Of a stretch of DNA of 46,958 nt, positions 5,059-16,085 are shown piece by piece (positions within the stretch are counted from its first letter, which is position 1; every line of letters starts with the position of its first letter). The notes under the pieces were generated by a model. That model was given only the letters and a program-made list of their open reading frames with translations. It did not search any database and was not told the DNA's origin. The position numbers and the translations under genes were made by a program. Source of the stretch: Solirubrobacterales bacterium (GTDB taxonomy: Bacteria > Actinomycetota > Thermoleophilia > Solirubrobacterales > 70-9); contig JAGQUV010000012.1 in assembly GCA_020438295.1 (NCBI GenBank), forward strand, positions 1 to 46,958. Reading direction: 5' to 3'.

Positions 5059-5325
5059 GTGGCCGAAAGTGAGCCCTTCGGGCAGACCCTGAGCTCCAGC
5101 GACGAGTTCATCGAGTCGCTGATGGACACCGATCTCTACTCGATGGGTGCCTATTTCTCCGACCGCAACCCCGAGCTGGTCGATGAAGTGATCGAGCGCA
5201 GCGAGGCGATCGAGCAGCGCGGGCTGCGCCGCTTCTCGCGGGAGGAGGGAGTCGACATCGAGGAGACCTTCCGCACCCTGCTGACCGGGCTGGCGGTGCG
5301 TTACTACAAGTCCGTGGCCAGCTGA
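5059..5325 (+). CDS. Small acidic protein of unknown function
   Basis: 88 residues from GTG at 5059 (90 if GTG 5053 were used). I do not recognise a family. The sequence is acidic in its first half (SSSDEFIESLMDTD), probably all-helical, with no cysteine, signal or membrane segment. It ends in TLLTGLAVRYYKSVAS. The following membrane-anchored DsbA-fold gene begins six bases after its stop, so the two are very likely co-transcribed from the promoter at 5047. A cytoplasmic partner or regulator of that protein is possible but unsupported. Confidence 0.7.
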   Translation: MAESEPFGQTLSSSDEFIESLMDTDLYSMGAYFSDRNPELVDEVIERSEAIEQRGLRRFSREEGVDIEETFRTLLTGLAVRYYKSVAS

Positions 5326-5331
5326 CCGGCG

Positions 5332-6054
5332 ATGGACGGTCCGGCTAAGCCGCCTCCCCGCCCGGGGCGCAAGCGGGTGCTGCTGATCCTTCTCGTCGCC
5401 GCGGGGGCGCTCGGCGTCGCGATCGTCGGCATGGCGACCCGCGAGCCCAGCCAAGACTACGAGCAGGCCGCCGGAACCAGTGACAGCCAGCGCATCTTCG
5501 GAGGCGTGCGGCAGCTCGACGACCGGCTCGGCGAGGACGGGGCCCCGGTCCAGATGCAACTCTTCCTCGACGCCCAGAGCGAGACCTATCGCGACCAGTT
5601 CCTGGACACCGTGCCGCCGCTGGTCAGCCGCAAGGTGCGCAGCGGCGAGCTGAAGCTGCTCTACCGGAACCGCTCGCTTACCCGCAACGCCACCGAGCTC
5701 AGCTTCTTCGCGATCGAAGCGGCCCAGGAGCAGGGCTACGGCTGGCAGTACGCCTACCTGATGTTCCGCAACCAGGAGCAGGCCAAGGCGACCGGGCTCG
5801 ATGAGGAGTTCCTCCAGACCCTCGCCGAGGCGATCCCGAACCTCGAGGTACCGGAGTGGAAGGACGACTTCGAGGCCGGCCTGGAACCGGGCAGCGCGAT
5901 CGAGGAGAGCCTGATCGAGCAGGACAAGCTGGCGATCGACCTGAGCATCCGGGACGAGCCGGCCGCGGTGGTCACCGGGCCGAACGGGACCGAGGTCGTA
6001 CAGGACGCTCCGGACCTCGACCGCCTGCTGCAGGCAATCGATTCAGTCCGGTAG
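5332..6054 (+). CDS. Membrane-anchored DsbA-fold protein lacking the CxxC site
   Basis: 240 residues. A basic N-terminus (KPPPRPGRKR) is followed by one hydrophobic helix, about residues 15-34, so the rest is probably extracytoplasmic. Residues 73-240 resemble the DsbA / thioredoxin_4 fold: a first strand VQMQLFLD, the long helical insert around residues 110-200 and a terminal strand-helix. At the active site, where the family has C-P-x-C, this protein reads S83-E84-T85-Y86. It has no cysteine at all, so it cannot be a disulphide oxidoreductase. It may be a structural or substrate-binding relic. It is co-transcribed with the 88-residue gene upstream. Confidence 0.7.
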   Translation: MDGPAKPPPRPGRKRVLLILLVAAGALGVAIVGMATREPSQDYEQAAGTSDSQRIFGGVRQLDDRLGEDGAPVQMQLFLDAQSETYRDQFLDTVPPLVSRKVRSGELKLLYRNRSLTRNATELSFFAIEAAQEQGYGWQYAYLMFRNQEQAKATGLDEEFLQTLAEAIPNLEVPEWKDDFEAGLEPGSAIEESLIEQDKLAIDLSIRDEPAAVVTGPNGTEVVQDAPDLDRLLQAIDSVR

Positions 6055-6071
6055 GCTCGACTCTCCTCTCT

Positions 6072-6145
6072 CGGGGCGTGGCGCAGCCTGGTAGCGCGCA
6101 CCGTTCGGGTCGGTGAGGTCCCCGGTTCGAATCCGGGCGCCCCGA
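6072..6145 (+). tRNA. tRNA-Pro (anticodon CGG)
   Basis: 74 bases folding as a full cloverleaf: acceptor CGGGGCG/CGCCCCG, D-stem GCGC/GCGC with AGCCTGGTA loop, anticodon stem CACCG/CGGTG with loop TTCGGGT (anticodon CGG, reads CCG), 5-base variable region, T-stem CCCGG/CCGGG with TTCGAAT loop, discriminator A. The 3' CCA is not encoded. Confidence 0.96.
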
Positions 6146-6304
6146 TATGGACAGGACTGCCCGGGGCCCGACGGGCAGTCCGGTTCCGTCCCGTCCGCCT
6201 GCGCTCGCCGAACCGGTGGAATCGGTCGGGCCGGCCGAACTGGGTGGGATGTTTCCGGTGTGCCCGGCAACTCCGGACCCGGTTCGCCGGCAGACGGTCG
6301 ATAG

Positions 6305-6342
6305 TGAGACAGAAATGTCGCAGATGCTACACTTCTGTTTCA
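6305..6342 (+). promoter_or_regulatory. 38-bp palindromic operator and promoter of the TetR/efflux operon
   Basis: Two nested inverted repeats share the same centre (6323.5): outer arms TGAGACAGAAAT/ACTTCTGTTTCA and inner TGTCGCA/TGCTACA. Overall 15 of 19 positions pair. TACACT (6328-6333), a -10 candidate nine bases before the GTG at 6343, lies inside it. The length would suit two repressor dimers. Confidence 0.6.
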
Positions 6343-6945
6343 GTGGAAATCGATCGTGAAGAACTGCTCAGGGGGGTTGCCAACGCGCTCACCTCCAACC
6401 CCGGTGCCCCGACCGGGGAGATCGCGGCTGCCGCGAACGTCAGCCGCGCCACGCTGCACCGCGTGCTGGGCGGGCGGGAAGAGCTGGTCGAGGCGACCTA
6501 CGGCTGGATGCTCGAGCAGTGCGGCCGGGTCTTCGACCGGGCCGGGATCGACCACGAACCGGTGCTCGAGGCGTTCGACCGGCTGATCGAGGACTCCTAT
6601 CCGCTGGCCCAGTCGCTCTGGCTGTTGATCGCGACGCCCGAGCTCGAGCGGGTTCCCGAACTGCTGGCCCGGCTCGAGGCCCAGGACCAGCGGCTCGAAC
6701 GCTTCTTCGTACGCGGACAGGAGGAAGGGCTGTTCCGCCGCGACCTGCCACCCCGCTGGCTTACCTACTCACTCGGCTCGCAGGTGATGTCGGCCTGGTA
6801 CATGGTCGATGACGGTTATGCCGGGGCGCGGGACGTGCCGCGGCTGGTCCGGGCCGCGGTTCTCGAAGGCGTGCTGGCCGACGCCGCCGGCTCGGCCGCC
6901 GAGACGCCGGGAAGTGCCGGGGCACCCCGCCCGAAGGAGTCGTAA
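6343..6945 (+). CDS. TetR-family transcriptional regulator
   Basis: 200 residues from GTG at 6343. The in-frame reading is open back to 6244, but that extension runs through the palindrome and promoter. The TetR helix-turn-helix lies at about residues 25-48 (TGEIAAAANVSRATLHRVLG), followed by the helical ligand-binding domain. Its stop overlaps the start of a DHA2 efflux pump by one base, so it almost certainly controls that pump and itself through the palindrome at 6305-6342. The inducer cannot be read from the sequence; regulators of this arrangement usually sense the pump's hydrophobic substrates. Residues after 185 are a low-complexity Ala/Gly/Pro tail. Confidence 0.9.
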   Translation: MEIDREELLRGVANALTSNPGAPTGEIAAAANVSRATLHRVLGGREELVEATYGWMLEQCGRVFDRAGIDHEPVLEAFDRLIEDSYPLAQSLWLLIATPELERVPELLARLEAQDQRLERFFVRGQEEGLFRRDLPPRWLTYSLGSQVMSAWYMVDDGYAGARDVPRLVRAAVLEGVLADAAGSAAETPGSAGAPRPKES

Positions 6946-8660: not shown

Positions 8661-9269
<609 letters not shown>

Positions 9270-9354: not shown

Positions 9355-10371
9355 TTGCCTTCCGCGAGAACCCAGACCCCGTCTACTGCACTCGCCGCAC
9401 TTGCCGCGGTCGCTATCGCGGTGTTGCTGGCCGTGGGACTGGCCGCCTGCGGTGGCGACGACGACGGCGGCCAGGCTGCCGGGTCGACCCCTTCGGCCTC
9501 CGATTTCCCGTCGGCCGAGGGCAGGACGATCGAAGACGTGCTGGCCGCGCAGAGCCCGAGCGACCTGGTCGTGGCGCCGGCCGCCAGCGTTTTCGAGCTC
9601 GGCAAGAACCGCTATCCGTTCGGGGTGTTCAACGTCGACCGCTCCCAGGTCGACGACGCCGAGGTGGCGCTGTACTTCGCCAAGACCTCCGAGTCGCCGG
9701 TCCAGGGCCCGTTGCCGGCCACGGTCGAGACCCTCGAGACCAAGCCGGCCTACCGGTCGAAGGGTTCGGAGGCCCCGGGAGAGGCGACCAGCGTCTACGT
9801 GGTCGACAACGTCAGGTTCGACCGCAGCGGGCCATGGCTGGCGATCGCGCTGATCAACGGCGACGACGGGATGGAGGGGGCCCGCCTGCCCAGCCCGACC
9901 GTGGGCCAGTTCCCCGGGGTCGCCCGGGTCGGGCAGAAGGCCCCCCGGGTCAGCACGCCCACCGCGGCCAGCGTCGGCGGTGATCTCTCGAAGATCGACA
10001 CCCGCCAGCCGCATTCGAGCATGCACGAGGCCGACCTCGAGGACGTGCTGGGCAAGAAGCCGGTGGTCCTGCTGTTTGCGACGCCGGCGCTCTGTCAGAG
10101 CCGGGTGTGCGGACCGACCGTGGACGCCGCCGAGCAGGTCAAGGCCGAGGTCGGCGACGGGGTCGAGTTCATCCACATGGAGGTCTACAACGACAACGAC
10201 CCGAACAAAGGGCTGAGGCCCCAACTGGCCGCCTACGGCCTGCAGACCGAACCCTGGGTCTTCCTGATCGGAAGCGACGGCAAGATCAAGCGGCGGATGG
10301 AAGGGGCGTTCGGGGTCGAAGAGCTCAGATCCGCGGTCGAGGACCTGAAGGCTTCGGAAGCCTCGGGCTGA
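9355..10371 (+). CDS. Secreted lipoprotein with C-terminal thioredoxin-fold domain
   Basis: 338 residues. A type II signal peptide ends in lipobox LAAC (Cys32), followed by an Asp/Gly-rich tether, so the protein is anchored outside the membrane. Residues 55-190 form an uncharacterised beta-rich domain. Residues 190-335 look like a thioredoxin fold (VVLLFATPALCQ, then FLIGSDGKIK), with Cys247 and Cys252 spaced C-x4-C instead of C-x2-C. That could be a redox pair or a metal-binding site. No ATG is available; the TTG start lacks a ribosome site but follows a -10 box by eight bases. The copper-protein cluster begins 180 bases downstream, so a role in copper delivery or thiol maintenance is an attractive inference. 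Confidence 0.82.
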   Translation: MPSARTQTPSTALAALAAVAIAVLLAVGLAACGGDDDGGQAAGSTPSASDFPSAEGRTIEDVLAAQSPSDLVVAPAASVFELGKNRYPFGVFNVDRSQVDDAEVALYFAKTSESPVQGPLPATVETLETKPAYRSKGSEAPGEATSVYVVDNVRFDRSGPWLAIALINGDDGMEGARLPSPTVGQFPGVARVGQKAPRVSTPTAASVGGDLSKIDTRQPHSSMHEADLEDVLGKKPVVLLFATPALCQSRVCGPTVDAAEQVKAEVGDGVEFIHMEVYNDNDPNKGLRPQLAAYGLQTEPWVFLIGSDGKIKRRMEGAFGVEELRSAVEDLKASEASG

Positions 10372-10445: not shown

Positions 10446-10459
10446 ACCCAAAATTGGGT
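10446..10459. promoter_or_regulatory. Palindrome upstream of the secreted copper-protein cluster
   Basis: ACCCAAAATTGGGT, a 6-bp perfect inverted repeat with two central bases, is an AT-rich island in a GC-rich gap about 90 bases before the beta-helix gene. It is a candidate operator for the cluster; I see no confident -35/-10 pair. Confidence 0.4.
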
Positions 10460-10550: not shown

Positions 10551-12350
10551 ATGAAGCAACGTCTTGCTGCAGCACTCGTAATGATCGCCGCCCTTCTGGT
10601 GGCCGCCCTCGGCCTGGCCGCACCGGCCTCCGCCGACGACGCCACGACCAGCGCCACTTCGGCCGAGAAGAAGGCCAATAAGGCCAAGAAGCAGAAGAAC
10701 AAGAAGTGCAACAAGTACAAGAAGGTCAAGAAGAACAAGGGCGCCAGCAAGAAGCAGAAGAACAAGGCCAAGAAGAGCTGCAACAAGGCCAAGAAGAACC
10801 TGAAGAAGGCCAACAAGAAGGTCAAGAAGCAGAACGCCCAGTACTTCGACGTCTGTAAGCACGGCTGCAAGTACAACACGATCCAGAAGGGCGTCAACGC
10901 GGCCGGCGAGTGGCAGAAGAAGAAGAACGGCAAGGCCAACCCCGACAAGGTGAACAAGACCGTGGCGACGGTCAGGGTCCAGCCCGGCACCTACACCGAG
11001 GGCGTCCTGATCCACGGCAGCCAGAAGGGCATGAACTTCAACGGCCTGAAGATCATCGGCGTGAAGAACAACCTCAAGCCCAACCCGAACGCCCGCAAGG
11101 TGATCCTGCAGGGCAAGAACGCCAAGACCGTGGTCAAGGGCACGCCCGGCTGGGTTCAGGGCGACCCGACCAAGATCGCGGCCAACAACGCGATCGAGGC
11201 GCGCAACGTCGACGACATCGTGTTCAAGAACATGTGGGCGAAGAACTACCTGAACAACACGTTCTTCGTCTGGGCCTCAAACCTCGAGGCCGACAACGAG
11301 CACTGCGCCGACTTCGTGATGGACAACCTGGTCTCCTCGGACACCAAGTCGTACGGGCTGTTCTCGCGGAACTGCTACGGCGGCAAGTTCCTCAATTCGG
11401 AAGGCTGGAACCACGGTGACTCGGCCCTGTACATCGGCGAGACGCCGTGCGACGAGTTCGACTGGACCAACAAGGGACCGAACCCGGGACCCTGCCAGGC
11501 CGATCCGAACTGGACCATCGTCAAGAACATGACCAGCCACCAGAACTCGCTCGGCTACTCCGGGACGAACTCCAAGTACGTGAAGATCATGGATTCGAAC
11601 TGGTACAACAACGGAGCCGGCATCGTTCCGAACACGCTCGACTCGGAGAAGTTCGAGCCGAGCGGGCAGTTGATCCTGGAGAACAACAACATCTTCTGGA
11701 ACAACTACAACTACTACTCCGACGGGTCCACGTTCACCACGGTGATCGGCAACGGGAACCCGACCGGTATCGGAATCATGCTGTACGGCACCGACGGCGT
11801 CGTGGCCAAGAACAACAACATCTTCGGCAACGAGCAGTGGGGCGCCGCCACGTTCTCCGGCCCGGAGTTGTTCGAAGTCAACGAAGGCGATGACGCCAAG
11901 AACATGAACAATCAGTTCATCGACAACAACATGGGCCGCAACGGCGTCGACCCGAACGGCAACTACGACTTCTTCTCGGATGCTTCGGGTGGAGGCAACT
12001 GCTGGTCGGGCAACAACTCGTCGACCTTCGCTCCGGGCAACGGCTCGGTCCCGGTCTCGACGATCTACCCCGCCTGCCCGCAGCCGACGGTGATCAACGA
12101 CGACGTGTCGGCGGTCGACTTCGGCGCCGGGCTGCAAATCAACACGGCCTACCTCAGTCCGCTGGAGCCGTGGAGGGACCTGACCACGATCTTCGGTCTG
12201 GCCGAAGTCCGCCCGTCGTCGCTGCAGGAATGCTCGTGGAACATCACCTCGCCGCATCCGTCGTTCAGCGACAACGGCGTCACCTACAAGGAAGAGCGGG
12301 CTCTGCCGGTCGGCGACCAGGCATGCCAGGAACTGGAGGATCGCCCGTAG
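10551..12350 (+). CDS. Secreted right-handed beta-helix protein with Lys-rich N-terminal region
   Basis: 599 residues. Signal peptide 1-28 (ends APASA). Residues 40-105 are extremely lysine-rich with two cysteines, then a CKHGCKYNTIQKGVN segment opens a pectate-lyase-like beta-helix: the phrase TIQKGVNAA and later asparagine ladders (ENNNIFWNN, KNNNIFGNE) mark repeated coils to about residue 500. Such helices bind or cleave polysaccharides, but no catalytic triad is assignable. ATG 10551 has GGAGAG upstream; in-frame upstream sequence overlaps the lipoprotein gene and is not coding. It is the first gene of a five-gene run of secreted proteins and may act as a wall-bound scaffold. Confidence 0.85.
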   Translation: MKQRLAAALVMIAALLVAALGLAAPASADDATTSATSAEKKANKAKKQKNKKCNKYKKVKKNKGASKKQKNKAKKSCNKAKKNLKKANKKVKKQNAQYFDVCKHGCKYNTIQKGVNAAGEWQKKKNGKANPDKVNKTVATVRVQPGTYTEGVLIHGSQKGMNFNGLKIIGVKNNLKPNPNARKVILQGKNAKTVVKGTPGWVQGDPTKIAANNAIEARNVDDIVFKNMWAKNYLNNTFFVWASNLEADNEHCADFVMDNLVSSDTKSYGLFSRNCYGGKFLNSEGWNHGDSALYIGETPCDEFDWTNKGPNPGPCQADPNWTIVKNMTSHQNSLGYSGTNSKYVKIMDSNWYNNGAGIVPNTLDSEKFEPSGQLILENNNIFWNNYNYYSDGSTFTTVIGNGNPTGIGIMLYGTDGVVAKNNNIFGNEQWGAATFSGPELFEVNEGDDAKNMNNQFIDNNMGRNGVDPNGNYDFFSDASGGGNCWSGNNSSTFAPGNGSVPVSTIYPACPQPTVINDDVSAVDFGAGLQINTAYLSPLEPWRDLTTIFGLAEVRPSSLQECSWNITSPHPSFSDNGVTYKEERALPVGDQACQELEDRP

Positions 12351-12385
12351 CCCGGGACATCCGTAATCAAGGAGGAAGAAGCTAA

Positions 12386-12943
12386 ATGAGCGCACTATTG
12401 AACAAGCGGTTGTCAGGCATCCTGGGTGCGGGGCTGGTGGCGCTGGCCGTGGGGGTGGCCGGCACGCCGGCCGCCGCCGCGACCGCGTCGGGCTCGGCCG
12501 ACGCCCAGGTCAGCGGCCTGACCAAGAAGCAGAAGAAGAAAAAGAAGAAAGAGCTGAAGAACTGCGACAAGAAGTCGACCAAGAAAAAGGTCAAGAAGTG
12601 CAAGAAGCAGGTCAACAAGAAGTACAAGAAGAAGTCCAAGCAGAACGCCAACCAGGGCAAGACCGTGGTGGTGAACCTGTTTGACAACTTCTTCCAGCCG
12701 AGTCAGCAGAGCATCAAGGTCAACGACTCGATCAAGTGGAGCTGGAAGAACGTGATCGGCCGCGAAGCCCATAACGTGACCCTGGACAAGGGCCCGAGCG
12801 GAGTCAAGCGGGACAGCTTCACCTCCTACACGACCGTCGACCCGGGCTACACGTTCAAACGCACGTTCACCACACCGGGCACCTATGCGTTCGTCTGCAC
12901 GCTTCACTTCGGCATGACCATGGATGTGAAGGTCTCGAAGTAG
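12386..12943 (+). CDS. Secreted cupredoxin with Lys-rich C-x11-C module
   Basis: 185 residues. Signal peptide about 1-32, a lysine-rich stretch at 46-87 containing Cys60 and Cys72, then a plastocyanin-like domain at 91-185. Type 1 copper ligands are in place: His129 (EAHNV), Cys171, His174 and Met177 (CTLHFGM). Such proteins carry single electrons. The basic region could bind anionic wall polymers. A good ribosome site, AAGGAGGAAG, precedes the ATG; the gap to the beta-helix gene is 35 bases. The next gene encodes a close relative with identical layout, so the two arose by duplication. The multicopper oxidase two genes on is the obvious electron partner. Confidence 0.9.
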   Translation: MSALLNKRLSGILGAGLVALAVGVAGTPAAAATASGSADAQVSGLTKKQKKKKKKELKNCDKKSTKKKVKKCKKQVNKKYKKKSKQNANQGKTVVVNLFDNFFQPSQQSIKVNDSIKWSWKNVIGREAHNVTLDKGPSGVKRDSFTSYTTVDPGYTFKRTFTTPGTYAFVCTLHFGMTMDVKVSK

Positions 12944-12956
12944 AGACCGGTATGGC

Positions 12957-13505
12957 ATGCGGAGATGCGGGCTGATCCTGACAGCGGCGGTCGTGCTGGT
13001 CGTGGGAACGACCGGCGCGACCGGTGCGGTCGCCGATTCCTCGGGAACCCATCCCGGTGGGCCGGCGGCCGGGGTCTCCGGCAGCTCCGGCGGGAAGTCG
13101 GCGAACAAGGCCAAACGCAGGGCGCTGAAGAGATGCCGCGGGCTCAGGAAGCGCTCCCGGCGGCGGGCCTGCGTCAGGCGCGTGAAGAGGAAGTACGCGG
13201 CCCGGAAGCGCGCGGCCACCGGCGAGACCTTCGTGATCGACGTCCGGGACAAGTACTTCAGCCCGGACGCGATCGAGATCGGCCCCGGCGACTCGCTGCT
13301 GTGGTACTGGAACCCGGTCAATCACGATGCCCACAACGTGAACCTGGTCGACGGCCCGGCCGGAGTGAAGCGAATCGATTTCGCCACCCCGAGCTCACCG
13401 TCGGTCGGTTTCAAGTTCAAGCGGACCTTCACGGTCCCGGGGACCTACCATTTCGCCTGTTCGATCCACCAGCTGATGACGATGACCGTCGAGGTCAGGA
13501 AATGA
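12957..13505 (+). CDS. Secreted cupredoxin with Arg-rich C-x11-C module
   Basis: 182 residues. Signal peptide about 1-26, a Gly/Ser spacer, a basic module at 50-86 with Cys60 and Cys72 at the same positions as in the upstream paralogue, then a cupredoxin domain. Copper ligands: His126 (DAHNV), Cys168, His171 and Met174 (CSIHQLM). The basic module here uses mainly arginine where the paralogue uses lysine. The two proteins align almost without gaps from residue 50 onward. The gene starts 13 bases after its paralogue and ends nine bases before the oxidase, so it is mid-operon. Likely an extracellular electron carrier. Confidence 0.9.
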   Translation: MRRCGLILTAAVVLVVGTTGATGAVADSSGTHPGGPAAGVSGSSGGKSANKAKRRALKRCRGLRKRSRRRACVRRVKRKYAARKRAATGETFVIDVRDKYFSPDAIEIGPGDSLLWYWNPVNHDAHNVNLVDGPAGVKRIDFATPSSPSVGFKFKRTFTVPGTYHFACSIHQLMTMTVEVRK

Positions 13506-13514
13506 GGAGCGATC

Positions 13515-14567
13515 ATGGGAATTGATCCGATGGACCGGAGGAACTTTCTCGGCGCGGCCGGTGGCGCGCTGCTCTGCACCATCGGCGGCCAGAAGGTGTT
13601 CCAGGACAAGCCGACGAACGTCCAGAAGCTGGCCGCGGGAGTCAAGGTGCCGCCGAAAGTGGCGGCCGCCAACCGCAATCCCGGCCTGACCAAGGCGGCC
13701 GCGGTGACCGGCAACCGCAAGGAGTACTGGATCGCGGCCGAGCAGCTTCGCTGGAACATCATCCCGGCCAACAAGAACGGGAAGAAGCGGGACCAGATGC
13801 TGAACCAGACGATCAGGAAGGGCAAGACCACCTTCAGTGCCTATGGCTATCGTCCTTACACCGCGAACTGGGGTCAGCCGCTGGCCCAGGCGACGATCCC
13901 GGGCCCGCTGATCGATGCCACGGTCGGCGACACCGTGGTGGTCCACTTCCGCAACCAGGTCCCGGTCCCGGTGACCATGCACCCGCACGGCCTGTTCTAC
14001 TCGAACGAGATGGACGGCGCCTACAAGGGCTACTGGACCGATCCGGGCGGGTTCGTCCAGCCCGGACGCGAATTCACCTATGTCTGGGAGTGCCACGAAG
14101 GGACCGAGGGGACGTGGTGGTACCACGACCACGGCCCGATCGACCCGATCGGCGTCTACAAGGGCCTGTTCGGACCGCTGCTGATCCGGCCCAAGGACGA
14201 GGTCAAGCCCGACCGCGAGTTTTTCATCGCGTTCCACAGCTTCCTGCCGCCGGCGACCGGCCTGACCAGCGGTTTCGACTGCGTCAACGGCAGATCGTTC
14301 ACCGGCAACACGCCCACTTTCAGCGCCAACGTCGGTGACGACGTGGCGTTCCACGTCTATGCGGTGGACGACAACTTCCACACCTTCCACCTGCACGGCC
14401 ATCGCTGGGAGGAGCCGGACGGAACGATCGTCGACAACAAGACGCTGGGCCCGGGCGATTCGTTCAAGTTCAGGTTCATCGAAGAGAACCCCGGCCGCTG
14501 GCTGTACCACTGCCACGTCTTCTCGCACCTCCACAACGGCATGTCAGGCTGGTACCTGGTCGAGTGA
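13515..14567 (+). CDS. Two-domain multicopper oxidase (small-laccase type)
   Basis: 350 residues. The N-terminal MDRRNFLGAAGG looks like a twin-arginine signal, as expected for a copper enzyme folded before export. All four copper motifs are present: HPHG (156-159), WYHDH (202-206), HTFHLH (289-294) and HCHVFSHLHNGM (332-343), giving type 1 copper in domain 2 and the trinuclear site between domains. At two cupredoxin domains it is shorter than three-domain laccases and should be a trimer. It couples one-electron oxidation of a substrate (phenols, metals or a cupredoxin) to reduction of oxygen to water. GAGGAG precedes the ATG at 13515. Confidence 0.93.
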   Translation: MGIDPMDRRNFLGAAGGALLCTIGGQKVFQDKPTNVQKLAAGVKVPPKVAAANRNPGLTKAAAVTGNRKEYWIAAEQLRWNIIPANKNGKKRDQMLNQTIRKGKTTFSAYGYRPYTANWGQPLAQATIPGPLIDATVGDTVVVHFRNQVPVPVTMHPHGLFYSNEMDGAYKGYWTDPGGFVQPGREFTYVWECHEGTEGTWWYHDHGPIDPIGVYKGLFGPLLIRPKDEVKPDREFFIAFHSFLPPATGLTSGFDCVNGRSFTGNTPTFSANVGDDVAFHVYAVDDNFHTFHLHGHRWEEPDGTIVDNKTLGPGDSFKFRFIEENPGRWLYHCHVFSHLHNGMSGWYLVE

Positions 14568-15325
14568 GACGCGTAGCCGCCATAGTGACCGCCATAGCCG
14601 GCGCCGCGCTGATCGTTGCGATCGGCGTCGCCCCGGCCCAGGCCGCGAACACCCGGGTCTCGATCCACGAGTTCCAGTGGTCGAAGGACCCCGTTATCGA
14701 CCTCGGCGAGACCGTGACCTGGGACTGGATCGGCCCCGACACCCTCCACTCGGTGACCGGCCAGCCGAAAAACGCGACGCAGTGGGACTCCGATCCCGGC
14801 CGCGTCGAGCCGCACCCGCTCGGCGATACGTTCAGCGTGACCTTCACCGAGCCGGGCGTCTACGAGTTCGAGTGCAAGCTCCACGCATCGGTCCGGGGCA
14901 CGGTCACCGTGTCGAGCACGCCGGGCGATCCCGATTCGGACCCCGGTCCCCAGGACCCGCTGGCGATCGATATCGAACCGCCCGACTTCAGCGAGGTCTA
15001 CCTGACCAACACCGTGCTCGGACCCAAGGGCAACGGAACCGCAATGAAGTTCTCGATCAACGAGAAGGGCACGGTCTCGGCCGACTTCTACAAGAAGGTC
15101 AAGAAGGGCAAGAAGAAAAAGAAGAAGACGGTCCGGGTCTACGCCGGGTTCCAGGAGTGGTCGAACCACATCGGTTACAACTCGGTGCTGTTCGCCAACC
15201 GCACCGGTGACTTCAAGGCGAAGCCCGGCAAGTACGTGGCGCTGGTGAGTGCGACCGACCAGTCGTTCAACACCACTCCGAACACCAAGCTCAAGTTCGA
15301 GATAAAGAAGAAAAAGAAGAAGTAG
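14564..15325 (+). CDS. Secreted cupredoxin fused to a Lys-rich C-terminal beta domain
   Basis: 253 residues from GTG 14564, overlapping the oxidase stop by four bases, so translation is coupled. Signal peptide 1-28, cupredoxin domain at 30-116, Asp/Pro/Gly linker, then a beta-sandwich-like domain at 133-247 broken by a lysine run near 177-188 and ending in six lysines. Copper ligands His62, Cys104 and His107 are present, but the axial position six residues after the cysteine is Val110 instead of Met. That would raise the redox potential or alter copper binding. The linkage to the oxidase suggests it is the direct electron donor or a surface tether; both are inference. Confidence 0.87.
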   Translation: MRRVAAIVTAIAGAALIVAIGVAPAQAANTRVSIHEFQWSKDPVIDLGETVTWDWIGPDTLHSVTGQPKNATQWDSDPGRVEPHPLGDTFSVTFTEPGVYEFECKLHASVRGTVTVSSTPGDPDSDPGPQDPLAIDIEPPDFSEVYLTNTVLGPKGNGTAMKFSINEKGTVSADFYKKVKKGKKKKKKTVRVYAGFQEWSNHIGYNSVLFANRTGDFKAKPGKYVALVSATDQSFNTTPNTKLKFEIKKKKKK

Positions 15326-15368: not shown

Positions 15369-16085
15369 GTGCCCAGTTCGCTCGAACGCCGCCACAACCG
15401 CCGTCGCCGACACGAGCGGACCCGTCAGGAGCTGATCCAGGCGGCACTCGACCAGGCGGTGGCCGGTTCGTTCAAGGACCTCACGGTCGAAGGAGTGACC
15501 CGGGCGGCCGGTGTCTCGCGCAGCGCCTTCTACGTCTACTTCGGCGACAAGGAAGAGCTGCTGCTGGGGGCGCTCGAGGACCTGATCGCCAGCCACCAGA
15601 ACCGGCTCGGCAATTGCTGGCCGGACGGCGGTGACCCGCGGCGCGGGGTGGAGAAGGCGATCTACGACGTGGCCCGGGTCTTCTCCGACAACTCGGAGCT
15701 GCTCGCGCTGGCCTTCGAGACCGCTACCTACGACGAGGAGGTGCGCGAGATCTGGGCGGCGCTTACCGAGTCGGTGACCGACGGCACGGTAGCCCAGATC
15801 AAGCGGCTCCAGGCCGATGGGGCGGTCGACGATTCGCTCGATGCCGAGGCTCTGGCCGAGGGCCTGGTGTTGATGACCGAGCGCAGCTTCCAGGTCAACC
15901 TGGCCCAGGGCCAACGGCAGCCGGACTCGGTCGCGGCCGACCTGACCAAGGTCTGGTGGGCCGCCCTGTTCGGGGCCGGCGCCGGCAACGGGGGAAACGG
16001 ATCCTCGCCGCAGGACGGCCCGCCACCGCCCGACGCCGGCGGTACGGATCCGCGGGCCGCGAGTCCGGCCGGAGCGGATTCCTAG
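15369..16085 (+). CDS. TetR-family transcriptional regulator
   Basis: 238 residues from GTG. A very basic N-terminus (RRHNRRRRHERTRQ) precedes a canonical TetR DNA-binding domain: VEGVTRAAGVSRSAFYVYFGDKEELL at about residues 40-65. The helical domain runs to about 205, and the last 30 residues are a disordered Pro/Gly/Asp tail. Its own promoter separates it from the copper cluster, which ends 43 bases upstream on the same strand; whether it regulates that cluster cannot be told. It is convergent with lemA, and the two coding regions overlap by four bases (CTAG). Confidence 0.9.
   Translation: MPSSLERRHNRRRRHERTRQELIQAALDQAVAGSFKDLTVEGVTRAAGVSRSAFYVYFGDKEELLLGALEDLIASHQNRLGNCWPDGGDPRRGVEKAIYDVARVFSDNSELLALAFETATYDEEVREIWAALTESVTDGTVAQIKRLQADGAVDDSLDAEALAEGLVLMTERSFQVNLAQGQRQPDSVAADLTKVWWAALFGAGAGNGGNGSSPQDGPPPPDAGGTDPRAASPAGADS

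Follow-up and report, generated by a model that had tools for sequence, protein, structure and literature searches.

Positions 10551-15325 of the window (the whole stretch of 46,958 nucleotides from a Solirubrobacterales bacterium that was analysed here) carry five plus-strand genes in the order A-B-C-D-E. These genes represent a real conserved module present in many bacteria of one order, in which a two-domain laccase-like multicopper oxidase (D) is accompanied by fixed partner genes. The core of this module has three parts, the beta-helix protein A, a cupredoxin and the oxidase D, and the duplicated cupredoxin and gene E are features of one of its two major gene orders (order i, see below). 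The oxidase is of a kind already known, and its set of fixed partners appears to be new. A preliminary description of the stretch had reported a beta-helix protein, two sister cupredoxins, an oxidase and a third cupredoxin with intergenic gaps of 35, 13, 9 and -4 bases, and this inventory proved to be exact. The following features were assigned:

10551-12350, plus strand: gene A, a predicted exported right-handed beta-helix protein of 599 residues
10638-10832, plus strand: residues 30-94 of A, a lysine-rich helical hairpin with C52 and C75 (model helices 30-61 and 67-94)
12386-12943, plus strand: gene B, a cupredoxin of 185 residues with a Met-type type 1 (T1) copper site (H129, C171, H174, M177) and a lysine-rich leader (PF00127, E 4.7e-11)
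12957-13505, plus strand: gene C, a cupredoxin of 182 residues with a Met-type T1 site (C168, H171, M174) and an Arg/Lys-rich leader (PF00127, E 5e-9)
13515-14567, plus strand: gene D, a type-B two-domain multicopper oxidase of 350 residues with a twin-arginine translocation (Tat)-like leader (PF07732, PF07731)
13704-13868, plus strand: residues 64-118 of D, an N-terminal segment with sequence likeness to factor V and ceruloplasmin repeats
14508-14543, plus strand: residues 332-343 of D, the motif HCHxxxHxxxxM with T1 and type 3 (T3) copper ligands
14564-15325, plus strand: gene E, a cupredoxin of 253 residues without axial Met and with a C-terminal lysine-rich domain, GTG start (PF00127, 25.3 bits at a cut-off of 21.2)

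Named GTDB genomes were scanned with the D alignment using two conserved peptide patterns, and 95 of the 117 stretches retrieved were confirmed. The best 80 of these 95 confirmed stretches were kept and yielded 79 distinct loci (L004 to L082), which include two pairs with identical oxidases (L046/L048 and L017/L018). When the reading frames of these loci were searched with the family profiles, we found A within 5 kb of D in 73 of the 79 loci, and in all 73 both genes were located on the same strand. L004, L005, L035, L038 and L042 carry D without A, and here the contig end is reached first. A same-strand cupredoxin within 5 kb of D was present in 71 of the 79 loci. L049, L050, L060 and L067, which lack such a gene, end at or just past A; in L070 and L075 a divergent cupredoxin is located upstream (in L075 at E 2e-3 only), and in L082, which also lacks a same-strand cupredoxin, the upstream side is cut off. 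The exact five-gene form of the window was observed in 4 of the 79 loci (L006, L007, L009, L013), and L004 and L005 are cut off before A. Thus, of the set originally put forward as five genes, it is the three-part core that is conserved.

Rough gene calling followed by clustering of the neighbouring genes placed A (in a cluster apparently merged with the cupredoxins) in 75 of the 79 loci and D in 70. This procedure undercounts, since D is present in all 79 loci, and its clusters were not annotated. No other neighbour family occurred in more than 18 of the 79 loci, and one of the two families reaching this number is E. The linkage of the core is far above this background. Two gene orders prevail: order i (A, cupredoxin or cupredoxins, D, E) was found in 30 loci and in the window, and order ii (D, A, cupredoxin) in 43 loci. 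In a phylogenetic tree of D (97 rows, from which 4 D sequences of the 79 loci were omitted as fragments of less than 300 residues) the two orders form sister clades with supports of 100/99 and 99/96 within one clade supported at 96/96. The set was therefore kept together while its order changed. Evolutionary distances of D mirrored those of A (r = 0.91, n = 25 and r = 0.79, n = 41) and of the cupredoxins (r = 0.90, n = 29 and r = 0.55, n = 35), but these correlations lack a species control and were not counted as proof.

Among 199 genomes of the class (Thermoleophilia), 22 contain a D of this group with 23 genes altogether (at least 387 bits, a threshold chosen after the gap to the next match at 290 bits had been seen). 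A strong A (at least 417 bits) was present in 21 of these 22 genomes and in 0 of the 177 others, where the best match scored 185 bits. Of the strong A genes, 21 of 22 adjoin D, and for the exception, G024:C105, the distance from the gene to the end of its contig is 114 bases. G270 has an oxidase fragment at the edge of a contig (117 bits), which was left unassigned. Because the genomes are related, this co-presence is to be read as an association within a clade and not as a series of independent gains. Some match to D was obtained in 109 of 151 relatives, a count that was not used, as it includes distant oxidases along with the present group. When 396 genomes of the phylum were searched, D matches above 250 bits were confined to the class, and the best match outside scored 152 bits. 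Outside the class, matches of at least 130 bits start at position 113 or later; weak matches starting earlier were seen in G320 (97 bits, position 7) and G304 (73 bits, position 61). Taken together, the co-occurrence in Thermoleophilia that the preliminary description had suggested looking for was observed, and the homologues are linked in related genomes and not scattered. Against a strict linkage speak L034, which has a TetR fragment at the expected place of A (its contig also ends within 500 bases), L040, which does not carry any cupredoxin, and G053, a true exception with D and E and without A.

Loci of more distant homologues suggest how the set was put together. Paralogous oxidases of the same order (group II, 40-44% identical) had a cupredoxin nearby in 9 of 10 loci examined out of 18 listed, and a beta-helix gene in none of these 10. 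Four loci of distant oxidases carried neither a beta-helix gene nor a cupredoxin, and six of six loci of distant beta-helix homologues were devoid of both oxidase and cupredoxin. Thus, the oxidase seems to have been associated with a cupredoxin before the beta-helix protein was added. Apart from these comparisons, several individual loci deserve mention. In L006 the full module is preceded at 240-2013 by an extra cupredoxin-oxidase-cupredoxin set, and the first cupredoxin of this extra set has no Met. Among cultured relatives, Solirubrobacter soli and Conexibacter arvalis possess the set. BroJett022 (L020, L026) contains two full modules. L053, L054, L074 and L079 come from metagenome bins titled Bifidobacterium breve, and their oxidases are found among those of Solirubrobacterales in the tree, so that these titles look wrong.

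The oxidase D matches PF07732 (90.9 bits) and PF07731 (59.7 bits), both above cut-off, and its predicted model and fold matches agree with two cupredoxin domains. The earlier statement that all four copper motifs are present was borne out, as the twelve ligands are complete (H156, H158, H204, H206, H289, H292, H294, H332, C333, H334, H338, M343). Among 29 aligned sequences, including that of the window, 11 of the 12 ligands are invariant, and M343 is kept in 28 and replaced by Val in P0024. The eight histidines of the trinuclear cluster (H156, H158, H204, H206, H292, H294, H332, H334) are among the residues invariant in 29 of 29. The T1 ligands (H289, C333, H338, M343) are present only in the second domain, and domain 1 contains HPH and HDH motifs and not HCH. 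D belongs to the type-B two-domain multicopper oxidases and, by analogy with these enzymes, is presumably a trimer. Copper nitrite reductase was considered as an identity of D and ruled out by the position of the T1 site in domain 2. The best fold match of the D model is ceruloplasmin. Sequence alignments of SLAC to D start at 103-119, and fold comparison aligns SLAC from residue 65. The idea that SLAC lacks the N-terminal segment of D was rejected, since the fold comparison aligns SLAC chains to the model from residue 65 onwards and only the sequence likeness is missing there. As a separate observation, Cys21 in the Tat-like leader (13515-13580, residues 1-22) is invariant in 29 of 29 sequences and lies outside any canonical lipobox.

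All five proteins had been described as exported, and leaders were indeed recognized on each of them. The leader of D is Tat-like (DRRNFLG) and those of A, B, C and E resemble the general secretory (Sec) type; these signals were judged by eye, and export is accordingly a prediction.

For A, the model displayed a beta-helix preceded by the lysine-rich helical hairpin (predicted local distance difference test score, pLDDT, 88.7). We did not obtain any family match above the curated cut-offs for A, and the folds most similar to it are those of polysaccharide epimerases and lyases. A search of PDB sequences with the A profile yielded four weak matches, which are pectinesterases, a lyase and a xylosidase. 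A homologue from Solirubrobacter pauli (P0246) carries the source name 'pectinesterase', which is doubtful. In an alignment of 50 A sequences the only invariant cysteines were C484 and C509, and none of the His or Met positions was invariant. Only in the clade of the window (L004-L006, L008, L011-L013, L035) did the lysine-rich two-cysteine hairpin pass our filter; L021 was excluded from this count, since it passes only through two cysteines at the start of the beta-helix. The lysine-rich regions, for which an anchoring role had been proposed, were consequently rejected as a core feature.

In 4 of the 35 order-ii loci that contain both genes (L041, L046, L048, L080), A and the cupredoxin share one open frame. 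These loci represent three organisms, because L046 and L048 are two assemblies of one strain (CPCC 204708). In the fused frames the profile matches of A and the cupredoxin are 5 to 13 residues apart, and a second leader was not seen. When the L046 fusion was used as protein-database query, 1473 proteins were retrieved, and among the 120 listed 13 covered at least 91% of the query. The cupredoxin His and the CxxH...Met pattern were intact at the C-terminal end in 12 of these 13 near-full-length homologues, and P0254 was without them. The fusions are the strongest sign that beta-helix and cupredoxin would act in the same place. A different arrangement was seen in L057 (11220-14238), where one cupredoxin is located between two beta-helix genes downstream of the oxidase.

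The cupredoxins B, C and E all match PF00127 above cut-off. B and C are sisters with 40% identity, and when B was searched against its own genome assembly (87% complete) only B itself, C and E were matched. In B and C the T1 ligands His, Cys, His and Met are complete (CTLHFGM and CSIHQLM plus an upstream His). E had been described simply as a third cupredoxin; this classification held, but E differs from B and C in that its T1 site retains His, Cys and His and misses the axial Met (CKLHASV, residues 104-110), and it carries an extra C-terminal domain. By eye, this domain reads as immunoglobulin-like, and its Y_Y_Y Pfam match (21 bits) is below cut-off. In order i, a Met is located 6 to 9 residues past the Cys in 34 of 34 upstream cupredoxins and is missing in 32 of 32 downstream ones (E). 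Loci without A follow the same pattern in their downstream cupredoxins (Met missing in 7 of 7; 39 of 39 together with those of order i), and 6 of 7 of their upstream cupredoxins have the Met. In order ii the Met is present in 28 of 35 cupredoxins. In a fungal laccase a Leu-to-Met exchange lowered the T1 potential by 140 mV, as stated in the part of that report available to us (PMC4220974). Since an axial Met lowers the T1 potential, E is expected to be a carrier of higher potential than the Met-type cupredoxins. The proteins also differ in their charge. D has a median net charge of -4 in order i and -5 in order ii, E has one of -7, and the Met-type cupredoxins are mostly basic: their median is +8 for order i, with values from -2 to 24, and +11 for order ii. 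Met-type cupredoxins of this charge beside an acidic oxidase would fit an electron exchange with D.

The best explanation for these data, which we put forward tentatively and which falls a little short of being probable, is an electron relay from organic donors to oxygen via cupredoxins and the laccase-like oxidase. In this relay, A would hold a donor that is polymeric or attached to the cell wall (a polysaccharide, lignin-carbohydrate or humic matter), and a Met-type cupredoxin on or near A would take up electrons from this donor. The basic cupredoxin could then dock on the acidic and presumably trimeric oxidase and hand the electrons to D, which would use them to reduce oxygen to water. The donors may be phenolic or humic and E may act as higher-potential carrier. 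A hint at the substrate comes from 'K2' two-domain laccases, which occur in Solirubrobacteraceae and Thermoleophilaceae enriched on 13C-lignin (PMC9296663). The relay is attractive because the T1 copper of type-B enzymes that have been characterised points into a tunnel at the centre of the trimer (PMC13151041, accessible part), and it would give D access to donors too large for its T1 copper. The same part of that source considers efficient degradation of lignin polymers unlikely for one enzyme of this type, CjMCO. The exchange of electrons between cupredoxins and oxidase, which had been proposed before, is in line with the charge fit, and the fusions tie A to the cupredoxin; the exchange as such is still a proposal. 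A more specific version is possible and more doubtful. It involves a lineage-specific extracellular copper chain, in which a single-repeat cousin of ceruloplasmin would be connected with polymeric donors through a basic Met-type cupredoxin sitting on, or fused to, a substrate-gripping beta-helix. The acidic Met-less E would serve as second relay, and a laccase with a buried T1 copper would thereby oxidise solid or polymeric matter.

Several observations weigh against the relay. No catalytic residue set could be assigned in A, and the likeness to its nearest folds may merely reflect the general beta-helix shape. The Met is missing in 7 of the 35 order-ii cupredoxins and in 1 of the 7 upstream cupredoxins of loci without A, and the latter have a median charge of only +1. 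If D is trimeric, a cupredoxin might not reach the tunnel-facing T1 copper because of the same geometry that makes the relay attractive. Finally, linkage and fusion suit copper delivery or assembly just as well.

This last point leads to the main rival, in which A and the cupredoxins form an assembly kit that folds, metallates or stabilises D, as NosD does for nitrous oxide reductase and CutF for CutO, and D alone would be the working enzyme. It is consistent with the insolubility of two oxidases of the related K2 clade when these were expressed on their own, as far as the accessible text of PMC9296663 goes. However, A has no match to the NosD family and other beta-helix proteins are better fold matches, and the lack of any invariant His or Met, with C484 and C509 as the only invariant cysteines, does not favour a role in metallation. 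Moreover, a SLAC-type enzyme was active from E. coli without such partners (PMC12470901, accessible part), and the complete T1 sites of most cupredoxins suit a redox function above copper ferrying. We consider this explanation unlikely. Oxidation of Fe(II), Mn(II) or Cu(I) by D at the cell surface, in the manner of ceruloplasmin or bacterial Mn oxidases and with the cupredoxins as electron or copper carriers, appears more improbable still: the likeness to ceruloplasmin is an overall one only, and the highest score of its profile is a total over several repeats. In addition, by residue numbering the ceruloplasmin ferroxidase acid beside the T1 His would correspond to S337 in D, which we counted against a metal oxidase. 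Cross-linking or pigmentation of an outer polymer layer by D with A as polymer binder, as oxidases of the CotA and PhsA types do with outer layers, agrees with the polysaccharide epimerase and lyase folds closest to A and with hairpins that could bind acidic polymers in the window's clade, but it leaves the cupredoxins unexplained, has no further neighbour family in more than 18 of the 79 loci (in unannotated clusters) to lean on, and is about as improbable as a metal oxidase.

The genes flanking the set were also inspected:

9355-10371, plus strand: U1, a lipoprotein whose C-terminal domain is thioredoxin-like (CX4C) and whose gene is likely an optional first one of the unit (weak PF13098 match, below cut-off)
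15369-16085, plus strand: a TetR-family regulator with a putative regulatory role that starts 43 bases 3' of E (PF00440, PF21313)

U1 ends 179 bases before A. Of the 30 order-i loci, 14 have a homologue of U1 upstream of A, which in 9 of these lies within 139-175 bases of the profile match of A, so that the unit may be larger than five genes and include U1. In 7 loci with more than 7 kb of upstream sequence U1 was missing, and a search of PDB sequences with U1 gave no match. A TetR homologue is located downstream of the set in close relatives also. A gene resembling an Fe/Mn superoxide dismutase by eye (8661-9269) lies 85 bases upstream of U1, and L009 has a similar protein upstream of U1. In L007, a minus-strand gene resembling a GMC-type oxidoreductase by eye (5137-6849) is located between U1 and A, and its family occurs in 5 of the 79 loci. 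The palindrome ACCCAAAATTGGGT at 10446-10459 was considered as an operator and dismissed, its core being missing upstream of A in the 10 relatives examined. A promoter scan gave no promoter-like site (0.5 expected), a terminator scan gave 4 terminator-like sites against 7.1 expected, and a search for RNA elements detected nothing beyond one transfer RNA.

Attempts to produce two K2 laccases of lignin-assimilating Thermoleophilia in soluble form did not succeed (PMC9296663, accessible part). The fixed partner genes and their natural fusions provide a concrete list of what K2 expression may have missed. With this set it could also be examined directly whether a laccase can act on polymers by way of protein electron carriers.

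Among known systems, those nearest to D are probably the 'K2-type' laccases, a clade named from 13C-lignin-enriched Solirubrobacteraceae and Thermoleophilaceae. According to the available text of PMC9296663 they come from the same order, are SLAC-like two-domain enzymes with a Tat leader and lack the 15-residue flap of SLAC. D is probably a member of this clade. In that text, which describes the oxidase alone, the terms cupredoxin, beta-helix and 'neighbo' occur in 0 places. The accessible parts of PMC9296663, PMC8943092, PMC3192119 and PMC7785015 do not describe the partner set, and our search of the accessible literature, with subscription journals and preprints outside its reach, gave no recognisable description of it. 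LacMeta is a two-domain laccase 41% identical to a Conexibacter woesei protein and 80% identical to a Streptomyces one (PMC8943092, accessible part), and it was therefore not taken as a member of the group of D.

Like D, the type-B enzymes SLAC, Ssl1 and CjMCO have two cupredoxin domains, a T1 site in the second and four ligand motifs, and SLAC types are 38-43% identical to D over about 230 aligned residues. D differs from them in its N-terminal segment, which is nearer in sequence to factor V and ceruloplasmin repeats, and in its fixed partner genes. D also lacks two loops of 8aip (11 and about 10 residues), one of which may correspond to the 15-residue SLAC flap. NosD resembles A as an exported beta-helix protein beside a cuproenzyme, but its profile PF05048 does not match A (E up to 0.1) and matches 2 of 6 A relatives (P0122, P0128). 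The TIGR03805 beta-helix shows a distant likeness to A (30.3 bits at a cut-off of 141.5; 0 of 199 genomes above cut-off). TIGR03805 proteins are paired with a diheme cytochrome c, and this system resembles our set in the pairing of a beta-helix with a small electron carrier, which here is a cupredoxin. The two-domain repeats of ceruloplasmin, factor V and factor VIII align along D, and two of the three ceruloplasmin repeats do so from profile position 65-66 and the first from 100. Whereas ceruloplasmin is a chain of several repeats with six cupredoxin domains, D is a single two-domain unit of 350 residues, and the resemblance of such a bacterial unit to ceruloplasmin repeats would bear on the origin of the six-domain oxidases.

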